Made by a program: the position numbers and the translations under genes
NCBI RefSeq assembly: GCF_000421465.1
Contig: NZ_ATXB01000001.1
Span: 1,426,001 to 1,490,000 of the forward strand
Direction: 5' to 3'
DNA from: Methylohalobius crimeensis 10Ki
GTDB lineage: Bacteria > Pseudomonadota > Gammaproteobacteria > Methylococcales > Methylothermaceae
Length of the DNA stretch: 64,000 nucleotides
Shown: piece by piece, positions 24,951 through 42,945 of the stretch
Layout: every line of letters starts with the position of its first letter
Numbering within the stretch: position 1 is the first letter of the stretch
Notes under the pieces: generated by a model
What the model was told of the DNA's origin: nothing
Database searches by the model: none
The model's input: the letters and a program-made list of their open reading frames with translations, nothing else

Positions 24951-26441
24951 TTGAAACCGAAAATCGTAACCGCGCAGTTGCCGAAACGATTGTACCGGGC
25001 CGAACAGGTTCGCGCCATGGATCGTTACGCCATCGACCGGTTGGGTGTTCCCGGCCAGGTGCTGATGGAGCGGGCCGGGGCGGCCGCTTTTCAAGTACTG
25101 CGTCGGCATTGGCCCGATGCGCGGCGAATTGCGGTGTTGTGCGGCGGTGGCAACAACGGCGGCGATGGCTATGTGGTGGCGCGTCAAGCGCTCGATGCCC
25201 GCTTGGAGGTCGAGGTGTTCGCCTTGTGTTCCCCGAAACGTCTCCCAGGCGATGCGTTGACGGTCTTTCAGGCCTATCAGGCCGCCGGCGGCAATATAAC
25301 GGAGGGCGCTCCGGGGCCGTTGGAAAATTTCGACGTGGTGGTGGACGCCTTGTTGGGAACCGGTCTCGATCGCGCGGTGGCCGGTTCATACGCCCAAGCG
25401 GTCGGGGCGATCAACGCGTTTTCCGGCGGTGTGCTGGCGGTGGATATACCTTCCGGCCTTCACGCCGATAGCGGGAATATTTTAGGCTGTGCCGTGGAAG
25501 CGGACGCCACGGTCACCTTTATCGGTCTCAAGCAGGGTTTGTTCACCGGCGAGGGGCCGGCGTGCGGCGGGAAAGTTTGGTATGGCGATTTGGCGGTTCC
25601 GGAAACCGTCTTGACCTGCCAGGAACCTTCGGCCCGTCTATGGTCGCGCTATCGGAATTTGCTTCCGCCTCGCCGGCGCACCGCCCATAAGGGGTATTTC
25701 GGCCATGTTTTGGTCGTGGGCGGCGAGGTCGGTTTTACCGGCGCGGCGCGGATGGCGGCCGAGGCGGCGGCCCGGGTCGGCGCCGGCTTGGTGAGCGTTG
25801 CCACCCGTTCGGCCCATGCGACTCAGTTGAACGCGTTGCGGCCGGAGATCATGTCCCACGGGGTGGAAACCTCCGCCGATCTGGCGCCTTTATTGGAGCG
25901 GGCCACTGCGGTGGCCGTCGGTCCGGGCTTGGGCCAGGCCGATTGGGCTCGGGATTTGCTGCAAAAAATATGGGACAGCGACTTGCCGGTGGTGGCGGAC
26001 GCCGACGCCCTCAATCTGCTCGCCCAAAGCCCTGTCAAGCGCGGCAAATGGATGCTCACTCCCCACCCCGGCGAGGCGGCTCGATTGCTGGAAAGCAGTC
26101 CTCGGCTAGTGGAGGAAGACCGCTTCGCGGCCTTGGCGGCCATGCTGGAACGATATGGAGGCGTCTGCATGCTCAAGGGGGCCGGAACCTTGGTGGGAGA
26201 AACCGAATCAACGCCGGGGATTTGTGCCTTGGGGAATCCGGGCATGGCGTCCGGTGGCATGGGAGATGTATTGACCGGCGTCCTGGCCGGATTGATCGCT
26301 CAAGGGATGCCGCTGTTCGAAGCGGCGCGGATGGGCGTGTGTCTCCATGCCGCGGCGGCGGATGCCGCGGCGGCGGAGGGGGAACGCGGTCTGTTGGCAA
26401 CCGATCTGATGCCGTGGTTGCGCCGCCTGGTCAATCAATGA
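24951..26441 (+). CDS. nnrD: Bifunctional NAD(P)H-hydrate epimerase / ADP-dependent hydratase
   Basis: Protein of 496 residues in two parts. The N-terminal YjeF_N epimerase domain has VLCGGGNNGGDGYVVARQ; the C-terminal carbohydrate-kinase-like dehydratase has GHVLVVGGEVGFTGAARM, LTPHPGEAARLL and GNPGMASGGMGDVLTG. Together they repair hydrated NAD(P)H. A strong TTAGGAGG six bases before TTG 24951 decides the start; an ATG at 24921 is in frame but lacks such a site. The gene is often named nnr; both names refer to the same bifunctional protein. The stop overlaps the tsaE start (ATGA). Confidence 0.95.
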   Translation: MKPKIVTAQLPKRLYRAEQVRAMDRYAIDRLGVPGQVLMERAGAAAFQVLRRHWPDARRIAVLCGGGNNGGDGYVVARQALDARLEVEVFALCSPKRLPGDALTVFQAYQAAGGNITEGAPGPLENFDVVVDALLGTGLDRAVAGSYAQAVGAINAFSGGVLAVDIPSGLHADSGNILGCAVEADATVTFIGLKQGLFTGEGPACGGKVWYGDLAVPETVLTCQEPSARLWSRYRNLLPPRRRTAHKGYFGHVLVVGGEVGFTGAARMAAEAAARVGAGLVSVATRSAHATQLNALRPEIMSHGVETSADLAPLLERATAVAVGPGLGQADWARDLLQKIWDSDLPVVADADALNLLAQSPVKRGKWMLTPHPGEAARLLESSPRLVEEDRFAALAAMLERYGGVCMLKGAGTLVGETESTPGICALGNPGMASGGMGDVLTGVLAGLIAQGMPLFEAARMGVCLHAAAADAAAAEGERGLLATDLMPWLRRLVNQ

Positions 26442-36347: not shown

Positions 36348-36424
36348 GGCTACGTAGCTCAGGTGGTTAGAGCACAGCACTCATAATGCTGGTGTCGGTG
36401 GTTCGAGTCCACCCGTAGCCACCA
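36348..36424 (+). tRNA. Elongator tRNA-Met (CAT)
   Basis: 77 bases including an encoded CCA. The acceptor arm GGCTACG pairs with CGTAGCC, the D arm is AGCTCAGGTGGTTAGAGC, the anticodon arm GCACTCATAATGC shows anticodon CAT, and the T arm GGTTCGAGTCC is canonical. The overall sequence resembles E. coli metT, the elongator form. A strong promoter is just upstream. The copper-protein cluster begins about 120 bases downstream; no copy of the 3' end was spotted elsewhere in the window. Confidence 0.97.
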
Positions 36425-36473: not shown

Positions 36474-36543
36474 TTTGTGTCAGATTGGCCGTTTTGGCAC
36501 AATGAATACGTCTTAAAATAACCACAATGAGTGGAGGAGAATT
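36474..36543 (+). repeat. Duplicated upstream region, copy 1
   Basis: This stretch matches 37363-37435 closely. Shared blocks are TTTGTGTC, GTTTTGGCACAAT, AATAACCACAA and GAGTGGAGGAGA, ending at the ATG of each paralogous gene. It shows that the gene duplication included promoter and ribosome-binding site. In this copy a -35-like TTGGCA lies at 36494-36499, but the -10 is poor (three bases are missing compared with copy 2). Confidence 0.85.
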
Positions 36544-37230
36544 ATGCGAACGACTATCAAGCCCGTTTTGTTCTTATGTGCGATTCTTTTTGGTACAGCC
36601 GCTTTCGCTGACGGGGGGGGTGGTGGCGGAGTCGGAACCGGTTGCCGGTTGCCGATGGGAAAATTCGTCCTGATGTTTTCCGCGTATCAGCCTCAATTGA
36701 CAGGTAGCAAAAAGTATTGCACTACGCTTCCGAAATTGGGTCGGAGCAACCTGGTCTTTGACTTCGAGACGATGGGCGATACGACGGAAACGCTACTGAA
36801 AGGCACGAAAGGGAGTACGGTGCTTGGAACCCCGGAGGGGACCAAAAATACCCTGGAGAATTTGGATGATCGGATGAAGGAAATGTCCGGATTGATGAAA
36901 CAAATGACCATGTCCATGGAAGTGGTTGATAATAATGGCAGAACCGTTTTCGAACGCCCTCCGGAGAAGATGGATCGGGGCACCGTTGAATCGGTCGTCG
37001 ATTTCAAGGAAGCGGGCAAATACGAGGTCCATGTTACCTTGACCGACCCCAAGGGAAAGAGCATGGAAAATCATCTGGCCATTCAAGTCGGGAAAGACCC
37101 CGGAGAGACCACCCGGAATATGATTATCGCCATCGTGGTGATTTTCGCAGTTTTATACTTCATTTACATGTCCAGCCCGGGTTTCCGCAAACAGGTGGAT
37201 GGGGTGATTGCTAAGCTCAAAAACTTCTAA
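36544..37230 (+). CDS. Uncharacterised secreted, C-terminally anchored protein, copy A
   Basis: Protein of 228 residues of unknown function. A signal peptide ends at FADG, followed by six or seven glycines and VGTGCRLPMGKF. The exported part (about 24-185) has two conserved cysteines, C34 and C59 (KYCTTLP), and ends in a beta-sandwich-like segment (VDFKEAGKYEVHVTLTDPKG) reminiscent of FixH/YtkA-type domains. One transmembrane helix (MIIAIVVIFAVLYFIYMS) and a basic cytoplasmic tail close it. Copy B downstream is highly similar but lacks about 26 residues of the middle. Association with copper proteins suggests a periplasmic redox or metal-handling role; this is inference. Confidence 0.8.
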   Translation: MRTTIKPVLFLCAILFGTAAFADGGGGGGVGTGCRLPMGKFVLMFSAYQPQLTGSKKYCTTLPKLGRSNLVFDFETMGDTTETLLKGTKGSTVLGTPEGTKNTLENLDDRMKEMSGLMKQMTMSMEVVDNNGRTVFERPPEKMDRGTVESVVDFKEAGKYEVHVTLTDPKGKSMENHLAIQVGKDPGETTRNMIIAIVVIFAVLYFIYMSSPGFRKQVDGVIAKLKNF

Positions 37231-37255
37231 CATATTTCCGGTTTCGCCCTTTGAT

Positions 37256-37322
37256 TCGTCCCCTCTATGGCGGTGCCTGCAACCCTCAGAGAAGCGGGCC
37301 ACGATGCAGACGGAGGGGACGA
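37256..37322 (+). repeat. Long-range inverted repeat between the two paralogs
   Basis: TCGTCCCCTC at 37256-37265 is the exact reverse complement of GAGGGGACGA at 37313-37322, with 47 bases between. In the transcript running from copy A it could form a closed stem around a loop, upstream of the copy B promoter. It may be an attenuating structure or chance. Confidence 0.4.
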
Positions 37323-37362
37323 TATTGGCGTCACAAACACTTCTCCCTCTTTCGCGGAATGA

Positions 37363-37435
37363 TTTGTGTCGGTTGGGCTGTTTTGGCACAATAAACAGGC
37401 TTTTCTATAATAACCACAAAGAGTGGAGGAGAGTC
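37363..37435 (+). repeat. Duplicated upstream region, copy 2
   Basis: Partner of 36474-36543. It shares TTTGTGTC, GTTTTGGCACAAT, AATAACCACAA and GAGTGGAGGAGA with copy 1 and carries three extra bases that create a full -10 element. Confidence 0.85.
37383..37411 (+). promoter_or_regulatory. Sigma-70 promoter ahead of copy B and the copper-protein genes
   Basis: TTGGCA at 37383-37388 and a perfect TATAAT at 37406-37411 are 17 bases apart, about 25 bases before the ATG of copy B. It would drive copy B and the multicopper oxidase and cupredoxin genes behind it. Confidence 0.75.
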
Positions 37436-38044
37436 ATGCGAACGATGACCAGATCTATCCTGATGCTTTGGATGCTGCTTTTGGGTACTCCCGCTTTCGC
37501 CGATGGTGGCGGTGGCGGCGGAGTCGGAGGCGGTTGCCGTCTGCCGGTCGGCGATTTTTTCTTGATGTTCTCGGCCTACCAGCCCCAGGTGACGGGGAAT
37601 GTCAAGTATTGCACCACCCTTCCGAATTTGGGGCATACCAATTTGGTCTTTGATTACGAGACCTTGGAGGGAACCACGGCGCAAAAATCCAAACTGGATT
37701 TGGATCGTCAAATCAAGCAAATGATGATTGAAGTGGAAGTGGTCAAAGATGGACAGACCATCTACGAGCGCCCGGCGGAATCCATGGAAAAGGGAACAAT
37801 CGAATCGGTCGTCGACTTCCAGGAAGCGGGTGAATACGAAGTTCACGTCACCTTGGCCGATCCCAATGGCAAAAGCATAGAAAATCATATGGCTCTTCAA
37901 GTGGGGAAAGACACCGGGGAAACTACGCGGAATGCAATTATCGCCGCGGTGATTATCTTCGCGGTGCTTTACTTCGTTTACCTGTCCAGTGCGGGCTTCC
38001 GCAAGCAGGTGGATGCGTTGATCGCGAAATTCAAGAAATTCTAA
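37436..38044 (+). CDS. Uncharacterised secreted, C-terminally anchored protein, copy B
   Basis: Paralog of copy A, 202 residues: signal peptide ending at FADG, a glycine run, GCRLPVGDF, FSAYQPQVTG, KYCTTLPNLG, a central acidic part, VDFQEAGEYEVHVTLADPNG, a transmembrane helix (AIIAAVIIFAVLYFVYLS) and the basic tail FRKQVDALIAKFKKF. Compared with copy A it lacks a Met/Thr-rich stretch of about 26 residues after residue 80. ATG 37436 follows GGAGGAGA, identical in both copies. A longer frame from 37208 is not coding. The multicopper oxidase gene starts 34 bases after it. Confidence 0.8.
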   Translation: MRTMTRSILMLWMLLLGTPAFADGGGGGGVGGGCRLPVGDFFLMFSAYQPQVTGNVKYCTTLPNLGHTNLVFDYETLEGTTAQKSKLDLDRQIKQMMIEVEVVKDGQTIYERPAESMEKGTIESVVDFQEAGEYEVHVTLADPNGKSIENHMALQVGKDTGETTRNAIIAAVIIFAVLYFVYLSSAGFRKQVDALIAKFKKF

Positions 38045-38078: not shown

Positions 38079-39794
38079 ATGCGGATACGTCTTGCGAGCG
38101 CGGCTGCCAGCGTTGCGATATTGTCTGTGGTAAATACGGCGGCGGGGAATCCCCCGCCGTCGTCGATTGAAGTGGATAAAGGACAAGCCGAGCCTTTTTG
38201 CCCCAAGGATAAGCCGGTTGAGTGGCGCGATGCCCAGGCGGTGGATGGCATCGAGATTGAGGAAGAACGCGTCTGTTGGCCGGATAATCCCCATGACATC
38301 GCTGCTTTCGTCAAGGGTACCAACAATATTACGATGCCCACCCTGATGAAGACGCGACTGGCCGCTGATTCGGTGATCAAGCGGAACGACCGCGACGGCG
38401 ACGGCGATCCGGATGAAATCGTCATCAAGCTGGAAGTGGCGGAATTGAACGGCGCGTCCCCTATTGCCGACGAATCGGTTCTCGATTTCGATATCGCGCC
38501 GGGTATTCGACCGGCTTTCTGGGTGTTCGCCCCTAAAACGCGGGGCATGGCCACCGAGGACGCTCACAGCGCGCAAGCCAACTCCCTGCTGCGTACTCCC
38601 TCGCCGGTCATTCGCGTCGAGCAAGGTGATGTGGTAAAGCTCGTCCTGGAAAACACCCACTATTTTCCTCACACCATTCATTTGCACGGCGTCGATCACC
38701 CATTCATGGATGAGGACGGCGAAGGAAACGACGGCGTGCCGCAAACCAGCGAGGGTTTCGTTCTCCCCGGAGGTCGGCGCATATACGACATCAGCCCGCG
38801 ACAGCCGGGTACCTTCATCTATCATTGCCATGTTCAAACTCATACCCATTTGGCCATGGGCTTGATCGGTATGCTGGTGGTGGAGGAAAACCGCCCCGAT
38901 AATTGGCTTCAAACCTTCAATGTGGGCGCGGGCAAGGTGCGCCATCCATCCAAGGGAAGCCTGGAGGCGTTCGATCAGGAATATGATCTCCATTATCAGG
39001 CGGTGGACAAGGAACTTCACGAAATTGTCCAGTCGAACAGCGATCCCCGTTTGATCGCCAAGAAAATGAACCGGGAATATGATTTGACCGATGCAAGCGA
39101 GGATTATTTCCTTCTCAACGGTCGTTCCTTTCCCTATACCCTGCGCGAATCCCTCATCGTCGTAGACCCGGACCAGGACATCAAATTGCGTGTGCTGAAT
39201 GCCCAGGGAGATTTGTTGGCAATTCATACCCATGGACATAAAGCCACCATTACCCATTACGATGGCGTGGAGGCCAATCCCGCCGCGCAAATTACCCGAG
39301 ACGTTTACGATTTGGCCCCGGCCCAACGGTTGGATCTGAAGTTGGATACCACAAACGACGGACTGCACAATTACGGTCCCGGCGTATGGGTTTTTCATGA
39401 CCATGTGGAACGCGGGATTACCACCGATGGCATGAACCCCGGCGGGAATGTGAGCGCCATCGTATATAAATCATTTCTTGACCCCAACGATGTGCCCCGG
39501 ATTCAGGGAGTCGATCTCGGCCAATATTTCACACGGGCTTTCTACGAACGCAAGCTTCCGGTATGGCAGGACATCGACGAATGGAACAGCTTAGGTGAAT
39601 CGGGTGCAGATCTTTCCCAAGCGGAGACGGAGTCGTCGAAGGCGCATCGGGAGGAGGCGGCTGAGCAGCCCGCCAAAACCCCCTTCCGCAACCTGTTGGT
39701 GGGGCTGTTCTTAGGGTTGTTGGCCTACGTTTTGTTCTCCAATCGTAAGCGCGCTCGAGAGCTGCTTTACCAGTATTGGCCTGGCAAAGGTTGA
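38079..39794 (+). CDS. Membrane-anchored multicopper oxidase
   Basis: Protein of 571 residues: signal peptide, an acidic N-terminal region with a calcium-loop-like DRDGDGDPDE, two cupredoxin domains and a C-terminal transmembrane anchor (LLVGLFLGLLAYVLF) with a basic tail. All four His-x-His copper motifs are present: HTIHLHG (H201, H203), HCHVQTHTHL (H249-C250-H251), HTHGH (H383, H385) and HDHVE (H440, H442), the pattern of a type-1 site plus a trinuclear site. It is expected to oxidise a periplasmic substrate with oxygen. The start is ATG 38079 (a TTG precedes it). The substrate is unknown; context suggests a partner in the cupredoxin encoded next. Confidence 0.88.
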   Translation: MRIRLASAAASVAILSVVNTAAGNPPPSSIEVDKGQAEPFCPKDKPVEWRDAQAVDGIEIEEERVCWPDNPHDIAAFVKGTNNITMPTLMKTRLAADSVIKRNDRDGDGDPDEIVIKLEVAELNGASPIADESVLDFDIAPGIRPAFWVFAPKTRGMATEDAHSAQANSLLRTPSPVIRVEQGDVVKLVLENTHYFPHTIHLHGVDHPFMDEDGEGNDGVPQTSEGFVLPGGRRIYDISPRQPGTFIYHCHVQTHTHLAMGLIGMLVVEENRPDNWLQTFNVGAGKVRHPSKGSLEAFDQEYDLHYQAVDKELHEIVQSNSDPRLIAKKMNREYDLTDASEDYFLLNGRSFPYTLRESLIVVDPDQDIKLRVLNAQGDLLAIHTHGHKATITHYDGVEANPAAQITRDVYDLAPAQRLDLKLDTTNDGLHNYGPGVWVFHDHVERGITTDGMNPGGNVSAIVYKSFLDPNDVPRIQGVDLGQYFTRAFYERKLPVWQDIDEWNSLGESGADLSQAETESSKAHREEAAEQPAKTPFRNLLVGLFLGLLAYVLFSNRKRARELLYQYWPGKG

Positions 39795-39808: not shown

Positions 39809-40630
39809 ATGCGATTGACTGTTTTAAAGGTTCTAGCGGGAGCAACCGTTTTGCTGAGCATGGCGGGACGGGCGGCAGAGATGCCGATGATGGATCATGG
39901 CCGGATGATGATGGATATGCGCGGACACATGGTGATGGGGCAAAATACCGATCAGCTTCCCGACGGCTGCCGCGAAATATCCGAAAACGTGAAGCTTACG
40001 GTTCATGCGGGGCATCGCCATGCCAAGTCTTATCCGGGAACGATATTCGGCTACAGCGAACACGAATGGAAGGTTGAGCCTTGTGCTCGGGTAACGGTGA
40101 ATTTGGTCAACGACGACAATGTAAGGCACCAATGGATGTTGCACGGATTACCCGAGGATCTTTATCCCATGGGGATGTTTCATATTGAAGTCACCGGCCC
40201 CGGTGAGGTGACCGGAACGTTCATCGCACCCCCGGAGAATAAAACTTATTTGGTACATTGCGATATTGCCCAGCATACCGAAAAGGGCATGAAAGCCCAG
40301 TTAATAGTGGGCAAGGGAAGCGGCATCCTACCCGGTATCCCCGGGGTGTCCGACGATCTGGTTAGCGCGTCCGGCCACGCAGGCTTATCGACCGCGCCGG
40401 AAACGGAAATCGGATCATCGCTGTTTTCGGGGATGGTCGTGTTAGGCTTTGTGGCGGGTATCCTGGGCGCACCTTATTTATTCCGCTGGGCGGGCATGCG
40501 CTTTTTCGGAATGAGCGGGAAAGATTTGAACAGCTATTTCTTCAATCGCATGACGGATTTGTTTTGCTTGTTCGTGCGCCTGTTCGTGTCGCTTTGGCGG
40601 CGTTTGGCTTGGACGAGGAGGCCGGTCTAG
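39809..40630 (+). CDS. Membrane-anchored cupredoxin with Met/His-rich N-terminus
   Basis: Protein of 273 residues. After the signal peptide comes a Met- and His-rich stretch (MPMMDHGRMMMDMRGHMVMG) likely to bind Cu(I). A cupredoxin domain follows with type-1 copper ligands H107 (VRHQWMLHG) and C151-x4-H156-x4-M161 (HCDIAQHTEKGM). A transmembrane helix near residue 210 (SGMVVLGFVAGILGAPYLF) is followed by a second hydrophobic, basic segment. It could pass electrons to or from the multicopper oxidase 14 bases upstream, or hand over copper. Confidence 0.85.
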   Translation: MRLTVLKVLAGATVLLSMAGRAAEMPMMDHGRMMMDMRGHMVMGQNTDQLPDGCREISENVKLTVHAGHRHAKSYPGTIFGYSEHEWKVEPCARVTVNLVNDDNVRHQWMLHGLPEDLYPMGMFHIEVTGPGEVTGTFIAPPENKTYLVHCDIAQHTEKGMKAQLIVGKGSGILPGIPGVSDDLVSASGHAGLSTAPETEIGSSLFSGMVVLGFVAGILGAPYLFRWAGMRFFGMSGKDLNSYFFNRMTDLFCLFVRLFVSLWRRLAWTRRPV

Positions 40631-40720: not shown

Positions 40721-42019
40721 TTATCGGTACAAGGAATAGGCACCGAAACGCATTTGATGCGGATGTCCAAGTTTTTCCTCTATGAAGTCGATGGCGAATT
40801 CCGGGGACAATCGCTGACCGTCCCATTGATAAGCCTTGACGAATTGTTCGTTGTCTTTCCCTTTCTTATCCCATTGGGATAAGAGGGAGGAGCTGAAGTA
40901 GACGCGCTTCCCGTCCCAGCTCTGGGATACCATGTTGACTTGGGCGCCGATCTTCTTCTGGTAGATTTGCTTGGGATGGAAAGGGTCGGAAATGTCGAAC
41001 AGACGAGCAGTGCCATCCATGAACGTGGTCACCCAAAGCCGCCGGTCGTCGCTTTCGATTGAAATATCCACCGGCAGGAGCGTTTGCTTGGGATCGCCGA
41101 TATCGGCAACTGCTCGGGCTTGCCAGTTTTCTTCTTCATCCAGATAAATGAGCCAGATTTTGGCCGTCAAAGCGGTGCTGGTAAAACAGTAATTGTGGTT
41201 GGGATCCCAAGCGCATCGAATCTCCAGGGAGGCGCCTGGGACGTCGAATATCTTCTTGGGCTGACGTTTTTGCAGATCCCACAAAACCATGGTGTTGCCG
41301 AATTGTTTCATCGCCTCCTGATCTTTCACCAGACTGCCGAAATCCCGCATGTAATTCTTATGTCCGGTGAAAGAACTGCTCAGCATGATATCCAAGCGGG
41401 GGAGGGCGCGCACGTCGTAACCGTAACCGTCGGCGTATTGCCCGGTTTTAACGGCTCCTCGCAGATTTTTATCGGTGGGCATCCAATAGGTGGCGACGTA
41501 TTCGCCCGCGTTGGTATATTCCACCAATGCGGTGCGGCCACCGTAATCCTGGTGGTTGGATAAACCGCTGATGATCATCCGATCGGGCAAAGCATAGGTC
41601 GTATGTGGGCCGACCACGCCGCCGGTTTTTTCCACGAAATCGTCAATGACTTTGAACAGCTTCGGTTTGGCGGGATCGGTATGGACGTCGAAAATAAATA
41701 TTTTGCTGGTATCCAATCCGCCCGCCCATAAATATTTGCGATCATCGGTGAATCCGGAATGGTGAGCTTCGTGGCGCCCGCCCACCGAAAGCGAATGGAT
41801 CACTTCTCCGTAATGGGAGGATTTAGGGTTGACGTCGATGGTGACCAGCTTGTCGGAGCCGTCTCCAACCGCCTCCATTCCCAGTGTCCAGACATAGACG
41901 AAGTCCTCTTGACCGACGATTTTTTGCATGTAAGGCGATAACGGCGTTTCATCGCCGTGGCTTGGATTGCCGAGAGCAACCATCAAGCAACCTAAAATCA
42001 TCAATAGCCAATGTCGCAT
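40721..42019 (-). CDS. Exported SBP56-family protein (selenium-binding / methanethiol oxidase type)
   Basis: Protein of 432 residues with a signal peptide (about 1-22) and the beta-propeller motifs of the SBP56 family: GGRHEAHHSGFT, KYLWAGGLDTSKIFIFDV, LSNHQDYGGRTALVEY, RCAWDPNHNYCF and the C-terminal GHPHQMRFG. Members include mammalian selenium-binding protein 1 and bacterial MtoX, a copper-dependent periplasmic methanethiol oxidase; distinguishing MtoX from other members needs phylogeny. GAGGTG precedes the ATG. It converges on the multicopper oxidase-cupredoxin operon, and a membrane protein gene lies 152 bases upstream on the same strand. Confidence 0.88.
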   Translation of the reverse strand: MRHWLLMILGCLMVALGNPSHGDETPLSPYMQKIVGQEDFVYVWTLGMEAVGDGSDKLVTIDVNPKSSHYGEVIHSLSVGGRHEAHHSGFTDDRKYLWAGGLDTSKIFIFDVHTDPAKPKLFKVIDDFVEKTGGVVGPHTTYALPDRMIISGLSNHQDYGGRTALVEYTNAGEYVATYWMPTDKNLRGAVKTGQYADGYGYDVRALPRLDIMLSSSFTGHKNYMRDFGSLVKDQEAMKQFGNTMVLWDLQKRQPKKIFDVPGASLEIRCAWDPNHNYCFTSTALTAKIWLIYLDEEENWQARAVADIGDPKQTLLPVDISIESDDRRLWVTTFMDGTARLFDISDPFHPKQIYQKKIGAQVNMVSQSWDGKRVYFSSSLLSQWDKKGKDNEQFVKAYQWDGQRLSPEFAIDFIEEKLGHPHQMRFGAYSLYR

Positions 42020-42171: not shown

Positions 42172-42945
42172 CTAGTCCTCAGCGGCGACTTGCACCCAAG
42201 CCGGTGGGGTCCACAAGTTTCTCACACGGTTCGGTAATGTCCGCAAACTGGTCCATTGGTTGATTAACCAAGTGGCTCCTCCCAGGGCCACCGCGTCCAC
42301 CAAGCAATACCACGTTGCCACTCCGCTCGGAGGATTCCCCTGAGGGATGAAGAGAAGAGGGTCTGATGCAACCCAAGCCCATGTGCCCAGCGACGTTCCG
42401 ATGAGTTCCAGATGAGTGGTGACAAAGAACGCGGCTAAATAGACCAAAGGCGCCCGCCCCCATAGGATGCAAGGGATGTAGATCGAAAATAAGATCATGC
42501 CAATCCAGTCGCCCCGTTCAGCAAGCGTGATCCCCCATAGAGACCATGCCCCCATCGTGGTGAGCACTCCCCAACAAATCGGGCGTTGAAAATATTGGAA
42601 GATGGGCGAGCGAGCGAGGGCCACGGCGGTCAGGTAAACCATGCCGTGTCCGGGCGGAATATAGGCGGGAATGTTATGGAAATAGTAGATATATCCATGC
42701 ATGAGCCCGGAGGCGAAGTGCTCGCCGGCGGTGGCGAACAAGACCGCGACCATGACCTGGAGACGAACCAAATTGGTTTCCCAGTACAATAAACCGATCA
42801 ATACCACCCATCCGCATTTCCCTAGGGCATTTTGCAAGGGCAGATCATGAAAGGAATCGACGTACAGACAGAAAGCGATGCCAATAAAAGTAACACCCGC
42901 GATAACCAGATCGTGAGCGCTGGCTTTGAAGGATCTCCAAATCAT
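42172..42945 (-). CDS. Uncharacterised polytopic membrane protein beside SBP56
   Basis: Protein of 257 residues with about seven hydrophobic segments. Distinctive motifs are HFASGLMHGYIYYFHN, IPPGHGMVYLTAVALARSP and PQGNPPSGVATWYCLVDAVAL. I do not recognise a named family and found no match to PmoA/AmoA. The multiple His in membrane loops could bind haem or copper. It is on the same strand as, and upstream of, the SBP56 gene, so the two may be expressed together. A perfect palindrome sits 17-32 bases before its ATG. No clear ribosome site is visible. Confidence 0.7.
   Translation of the reverse strand: MIWRSFKASAHDLVIAGVTFIGIAFCLYVDSFHDLPLQNALGKCGWVVLIGLLYWETNLVRLQVMVAVLFATAGEHFASGLMHGYIYYFHNIPAYIPPGHGMVYLTAVALARSPIFQYFQRPICWGVLTTMGAWSLWGITLAERGDWIGMILFSIYIPCILWGRAPLVYLAAFFVTTHLELIGTSLGTWAWVASDPLLFIPQGNPPSGVATWYCLVDAVALGGATWLINQWTSLRTLPNRVRNLWTPPAWVQVAAED

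Follow-up and report, generated by a model that had tools for sequence, protein, structure and literature searches.

A lineage-specific tandem duplication of pmoD, probably with its promoter, in Methylohalobius crimeensis 10Ki

Two adjacent genes of Methylohalobius crimeensis 10Ki, here called copies A and B, are tandem copies of pmoD, a known copper protein gene of methanotrophs. The pair probably arose by a lineage-specific tandem duplication of promoter and gene, with copy A now diverging and a copper role other than CuA being the likeliest for the products. The analysis covered a window of 64,000 nucleotides (contig NZ_ATXB01000001.1, positions 1,426,001 to 1,490,000, forward strand), and coordinates are counted from its first letter. 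The features of the locus are as follows.

36348 to 36424, + strand: tRNA-Met (CAT), predicted by ARAGORN; ancestral upstream neighbour of the pmoD gene
36475 to 36503, + strand: promoter-like element of A, TTGTGT-N17-(TGG)CACAAT, conserved upstream of ten DGG-type genes
36544 to 37230, + strand: copy A, PmoD family, 228 aa including an inserted segment of ~26 aa; has a Met-rich helix
37364 to 37392, + strand: promoter-like element of B, TTGTGT-N17-(TGG)CACAAT, conserved upstream of ten DGG-type genes
37383 to 37411, + strand: TTGGCA-17-TATAAT, within the pair in B only; spacing drifts in relatives
37436 to 38044, + strand: copy B, PmoD family, 202 aa, of ancestral length for the DGG type
38079 to 39794, + strand: multicopper oxidase (Pfam Cu-oxidase domains; start codon placed by inspection)
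39809 to 40630, + strand: cupredoxin-like membrane-anchored protein (Pfam PF07731, weak-to-moderate match)

The gene pair and its setting

The initial annotation had described a tandem gene duplication carrying its own upstream regulatory DNA, and the two ORFs with about 70 bp of similar 5′ DNA (36474–36543 for A and 37363–37435 for B) bear this out. The upstream pattern common to both copies is expected by chance 0.00 times in the window. The proteins are identical at 138 of 201 aligned residues (~68%), and DNA repeats between the genes extend over 288 nt at 77% and 274 nt at 73% identity. The signal peptide, glycine run, two cysteines (Cys34 and Cys59) and C-terminal helix were correctly noted as common to A and B; helices were predicted at both protein ends, and the signal peptide and membrane assignments were made by inspection. 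The intergenic distances are 205 nt between A and B, 34 nt between B and the oxidase gene, and 14 nt between the oxidase and cupredoxin-like genes. The interval between A and B showed no terminator-like site, so it is possible that transcription runs through from A into B.

Judged from sequence profiles and predicted structures, A and B are members of the PmoD/AmoD family, which occurs in methane and ammonia oxidisers. A profile built from 17 homologues matched PmoD (PDB 6cpd) with an E value of 3.7e-20 (hmmsearch), and no other solved protein scored below 0.08; B as a single query reached 6cpd at 0.0024. The AlphaFold models of both copies, which are of moderate confidence (pLDDT 73.7 for B and 71.0 for A, with the A insert partly below 50), show a beta-sandwich plus C-terminal helices. 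The B model matched 6cpd with a Foldseek E value of 2.2e-9 and a Z score of 14.8 (rmsd 1.9 over 112 residues; VIA), and the next entry had a Z score of 9.7. Cys34 and Cys59 are invariant across the alignment. Pfam and NCBIfam searches with A and B returned sub-threshold matches only; thus, no model in these collections catches proteins of this type. Nearly all sampled genomes of the order Methylococcales (196 of 201) had matches to the family profile. Neither a scan of genome contigs with a single protein as query nor a search of the literature for one named Methylococcus locus tag gave a match.

Comparison of gene order indicates that the linkage of pmoD, multicopper oxidase and cupredoxin genes is kept across Methylococcales: over 20 loci, the pmoD-family gene was linked to the oxidase at 18 and to the cupredoxin-like gene at 19. 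The tRNA-Met gene stood upstream at seven of the eight congener loci tested. The neighbours of A and B are the tRNA-Met, oxidase and cupredoxin-like genes, and the pair does not lie within a pmo or amo operon. The genome encodes a copper membrane monooxygenase, with two PF02461 (pmoA) loci that are both away from A and B, and the published draft of M. crimeensis 10Ki reports two pmo operons (PMC4463540). Beyond the operon lies a convergent gene for methanethiol oxidase MtoX (40721–42019, − strand; NCBIfam NF052453, above the cut-off), the position of which next to the copper operon is conserved in the genus. The gene at 42172–42945 (− strand) encodes a membrane protein of 257 aa that matches no Pfam model, and it is a conserved neighbour of the copper operon in several Methylococcales families. 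Elsewhere in the window, ARAGORN called a tRNA at 26247–26336 (+ strand) whose anticodon is incomplete (cc).

Fisher et al. (2018; PMC6189053) described PmoD genes in the vicinity of multicopper oxidases and of further pmoD genes, so both the family and its setting are known, and the A/B locus is a modest new case in a known gene family. The subgroups in that study include PmoDs encoded near oxidases and PmoDs in which the two cysteines are the sole metal motif, both of which resemble A and B; a lineage-specific tandem pair and the insertion of A are not mentioned in its main text. The amoE and amoD genes of ammonia-oxidising bacteria are, as outlined there, likewise a pair of neighbouring family members, but they belong to the amo operon and their ligand motifs differ from each other (PMC6189053). 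In contrast, A and B arose in one genus-level lineage and have the same residues at those positions.

Insertion in copy A and divergence of the two copies

Copy B had been annotated as lacking about 26 residues in the middle of the protein. It is indeed shorter than A by this segment, but the interpretation as an internal deletion does not hold, because homologues also align without the segment. Other DGG-type members of the genus are 198–205 aa long and HGG-type members 189 aa. The extra segment was missing in all ten other genus sequences and in all 24 more distant homologues aligned. Since the ten other genus members, at 189–205 aa, do not carry it, the sequence comparison indicates that A has gained about 26 aa and B keeps the ancestral length. 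In the AlphaFold models, the insert extends a helical stretch between two strands, from residues 83–94 in B to 97–119 in A. Six methionines (Met111, 114, 118, 121, 123 and 125) fall within 16 residues of this helix and its edge, and no more than three were counted in any other homologue examined (shuffle P = 0.007, post hoc). An internal duplication was considered as the origin of the insert and rejected, as the segment has no repeated 8-mer or longer repeat.

In the tree, A and B are sisters (98/95) and adjoin the gene of Methylohalobius sp. SKW56, with branch lengths of 0.30 for A and 0.089 for B. The dS between the copies is 1.32, which indicates an old duplication, and the dN of 0.22 against this dS (dN/dS ~0.17) shows purifying selection on both. 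The relative-rate test with the SKW56 gene as outgroup counted 30 A-only and 10 B-only changes (p = 0.0016); it was significant with two of seven outgroups (second p = 0.023), and the other five gave non-significant differences in the same direction. These sequence comparisons suggest that A has evolved faster than B and is still under purifying selection.

The HGG and DGG types appear from the sequences to have arisen by an earlier duplication. One congener (G002) has both types in tandem, another (G006) has HGG only at the locus, and most species have DGG only. At the predicted mature start, with the signal-peptidase cleavage site placed by inspection, His-Gly-Gly was found in all 24 homologues from other families and in two older-type (HGG) copies inside the genus, and the DGG type has Asp instead of His. 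In the 24 homologues, the predicted mature N-terminal His is a possible copper ligand.

Upstream elements

The genus-wide upstream element is TTNNNT-N17-(TGG)CACAAT, and A and B are identical in it (TTGTGT-N17-CACAAT). When all ten DGG-type upstream regions were aligned on TGGCACAAT, the block was invariant, as were the T residues at positions −20 and −15, and nine of the ten also had T at −19; these regions come from related species, so that the conserved columns are not fully independent. The TGG stands at the extended −10 position of the conserved element. A sigma-54 reading of TGGCAC was set aside on inspection, as neither copy has a GG-to-GC spacing that fits. The sequence TTTGGCACAAT is also located 34–50 nt before a conserved permease-like ORF (~400 aa) in six congeners. 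This weakens a pmoD-specific operator at TGGCACAAT and favours a promoter element; on the sequence pattern, the CACAAT-type element may be a promoter element in general use in the lineage.

A perfect TATAAT 17 bases from TTGGCA had been reported for B, and this was found as stated (TTGGCA 37383–37388, 17 nt, TATAAT 37406–37411; 11 of 12 consensus matches). Copy A was said to lack three bases there and to have no good −10; the shorter distance stands, but A has TAAAAT at 36514–36519, a 5/6 match to the −10 consensus located 14 nt from TTGGCA. Sigma-70-like matches are not rare in the window, with three found against 1.6 expected in shuffles. Across the ten genes, the spacing from TTGGCA to the ATAAT-like hexamer is 14, 17, 15, 19, 21, 21, 20, 14, 24 and 14 nt, and the hexamer sits roughly 30 nt upstream of the start codon. 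Because the spacing varies from 14 to 24 nt across the genus, this pair of hexamers is not a conserved promoter, and the perfect TATAAT of B looks incidental from the comparison. Different expression of the copies through diverged −10 elements, as initially proposed, is not supported, given the drifting spacing and the identical conserved element in A and B. B might nevertheless use TTGGCA-17-TATAAT on top of the conserved element.

Copper ligands and possible roles of the pair

PmoD Met49242_1452 of Methylocystis sp. Rockwell (6cpd) has a dimeric CuA site built from Cys41, Met49 and His51 (PMC6189053). It shares with A and B the signal peptide, two-Cys cupredoxin domain, C-terminal TM helix and fold. 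However, it belongs to an extended pmo operon and carries the CuA ligands, whereas A and B have only the cysteines and belong to an oxidase operon, and the extra Met-rich helix is present in A and absent from 6cpd. The residues aligned to Cys41, Met49 and His51 are C34, V42 and M44 in A and C34, F42 and M44 in B, and the Cx7MxHxnC motif with the Met49 and His51 equivalents is missing in both. Outside the genus, 22 of the 24 homologues keep His at the His51 position, and within it the ten DGG-type genes carry M, L or I there. Since neither copy has the Met49 and His51 ligands, a non-CuA role appears likeliest, and a CuA-held A–B heterodimer is unlikely from the sequences. An A–B heteromer by whatever route finds no support.

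According to the reading we prefer, the pmoD gene that stands first in the conserved operon with the multicopper oxidase and cupredoxin genes in Methylococcales methanotrophs would have been duplicated in tandem as a unit of promoter and gene, with A keeping the tRNA-Met upstream and B the oxidase downstream. Both copies would have retained the genus-conserved promoter-like element, the conservation of which is observed and its transcription presumed. Both products are predicted from sequence and models to be secreted, with a periplasmic PmoD-type cupredoxin domain and a C-terminal TM anchor. Copy A would then have gained its ~26 residues, by which the inter-strand helix was lengthened into the Met-rich helix. 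The proteins may take part in non-CuA copper handling or in structural partnering with the oxidase and the cupredoxin at the inner membrane, and A would be diverging in role from B.

Several other explanations were weighed against this. The two copies could do one job, with the duplication merely raising the amount of protein, as the identical promoter element, the common family and purifying selection on both would allow; this is unlikely, as a dS of 1.3 marks an old pair, with A carrying a novel segment and evolving faster, and copies kept for dosage usually remain alike or get lost. It is rather improbable that B is driven by a strong sigma-70 promoter (TTGGCA-17-TATAAT) that A does not have and that the two copies, expressed differently, pair up as a functional heterodimer. 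The hexamers of B match at 11 of 12 positions at the best spacing, those of A are 14 nt apart, and PmoD can dimerise (PMC6189053). However, this spacing ranges over 14–24 nt in ten genes of the genus, a different two-part element shows no variation there and is complete in both A and B, and neither copy has the residues required by the PmoD CuA dimer.

The faster evolution of A and its insertion could also mark a decaying duplicate heading for loss, but this is very unlikely: A keeps an open frame, a ribosome-binding site, the signal peptide, both cysteines and the TM helix, and dN/dS is ~0.17 at high dS. An unlinked, copC-linked pmoD (Cx9H type) was found in eight of nine congeners, and both this pmoD and copC were undetected in the M. 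crimeensis genome, where no pmoD other than A and B was detectable. It is unlikely that A has been neofunctionalised in such a way that its Met-rich helix binds Cu(I) and replaces the work of the lost copC-linked PmoD.

PmoD is closely linked to methane and ammonia oxidation. With one promoter type and no other PmoD detected in the genome, deleting A, B or both would give interpretable results. In the preferred reading, a duplicated pmoD with A diverging, the locus offers a natural pair that bears on the role of PmoD and on differences between paralogues: one PmoD that is free of CuA ligands, and its sister, which evolves faster and carries a new Met-rich helix.
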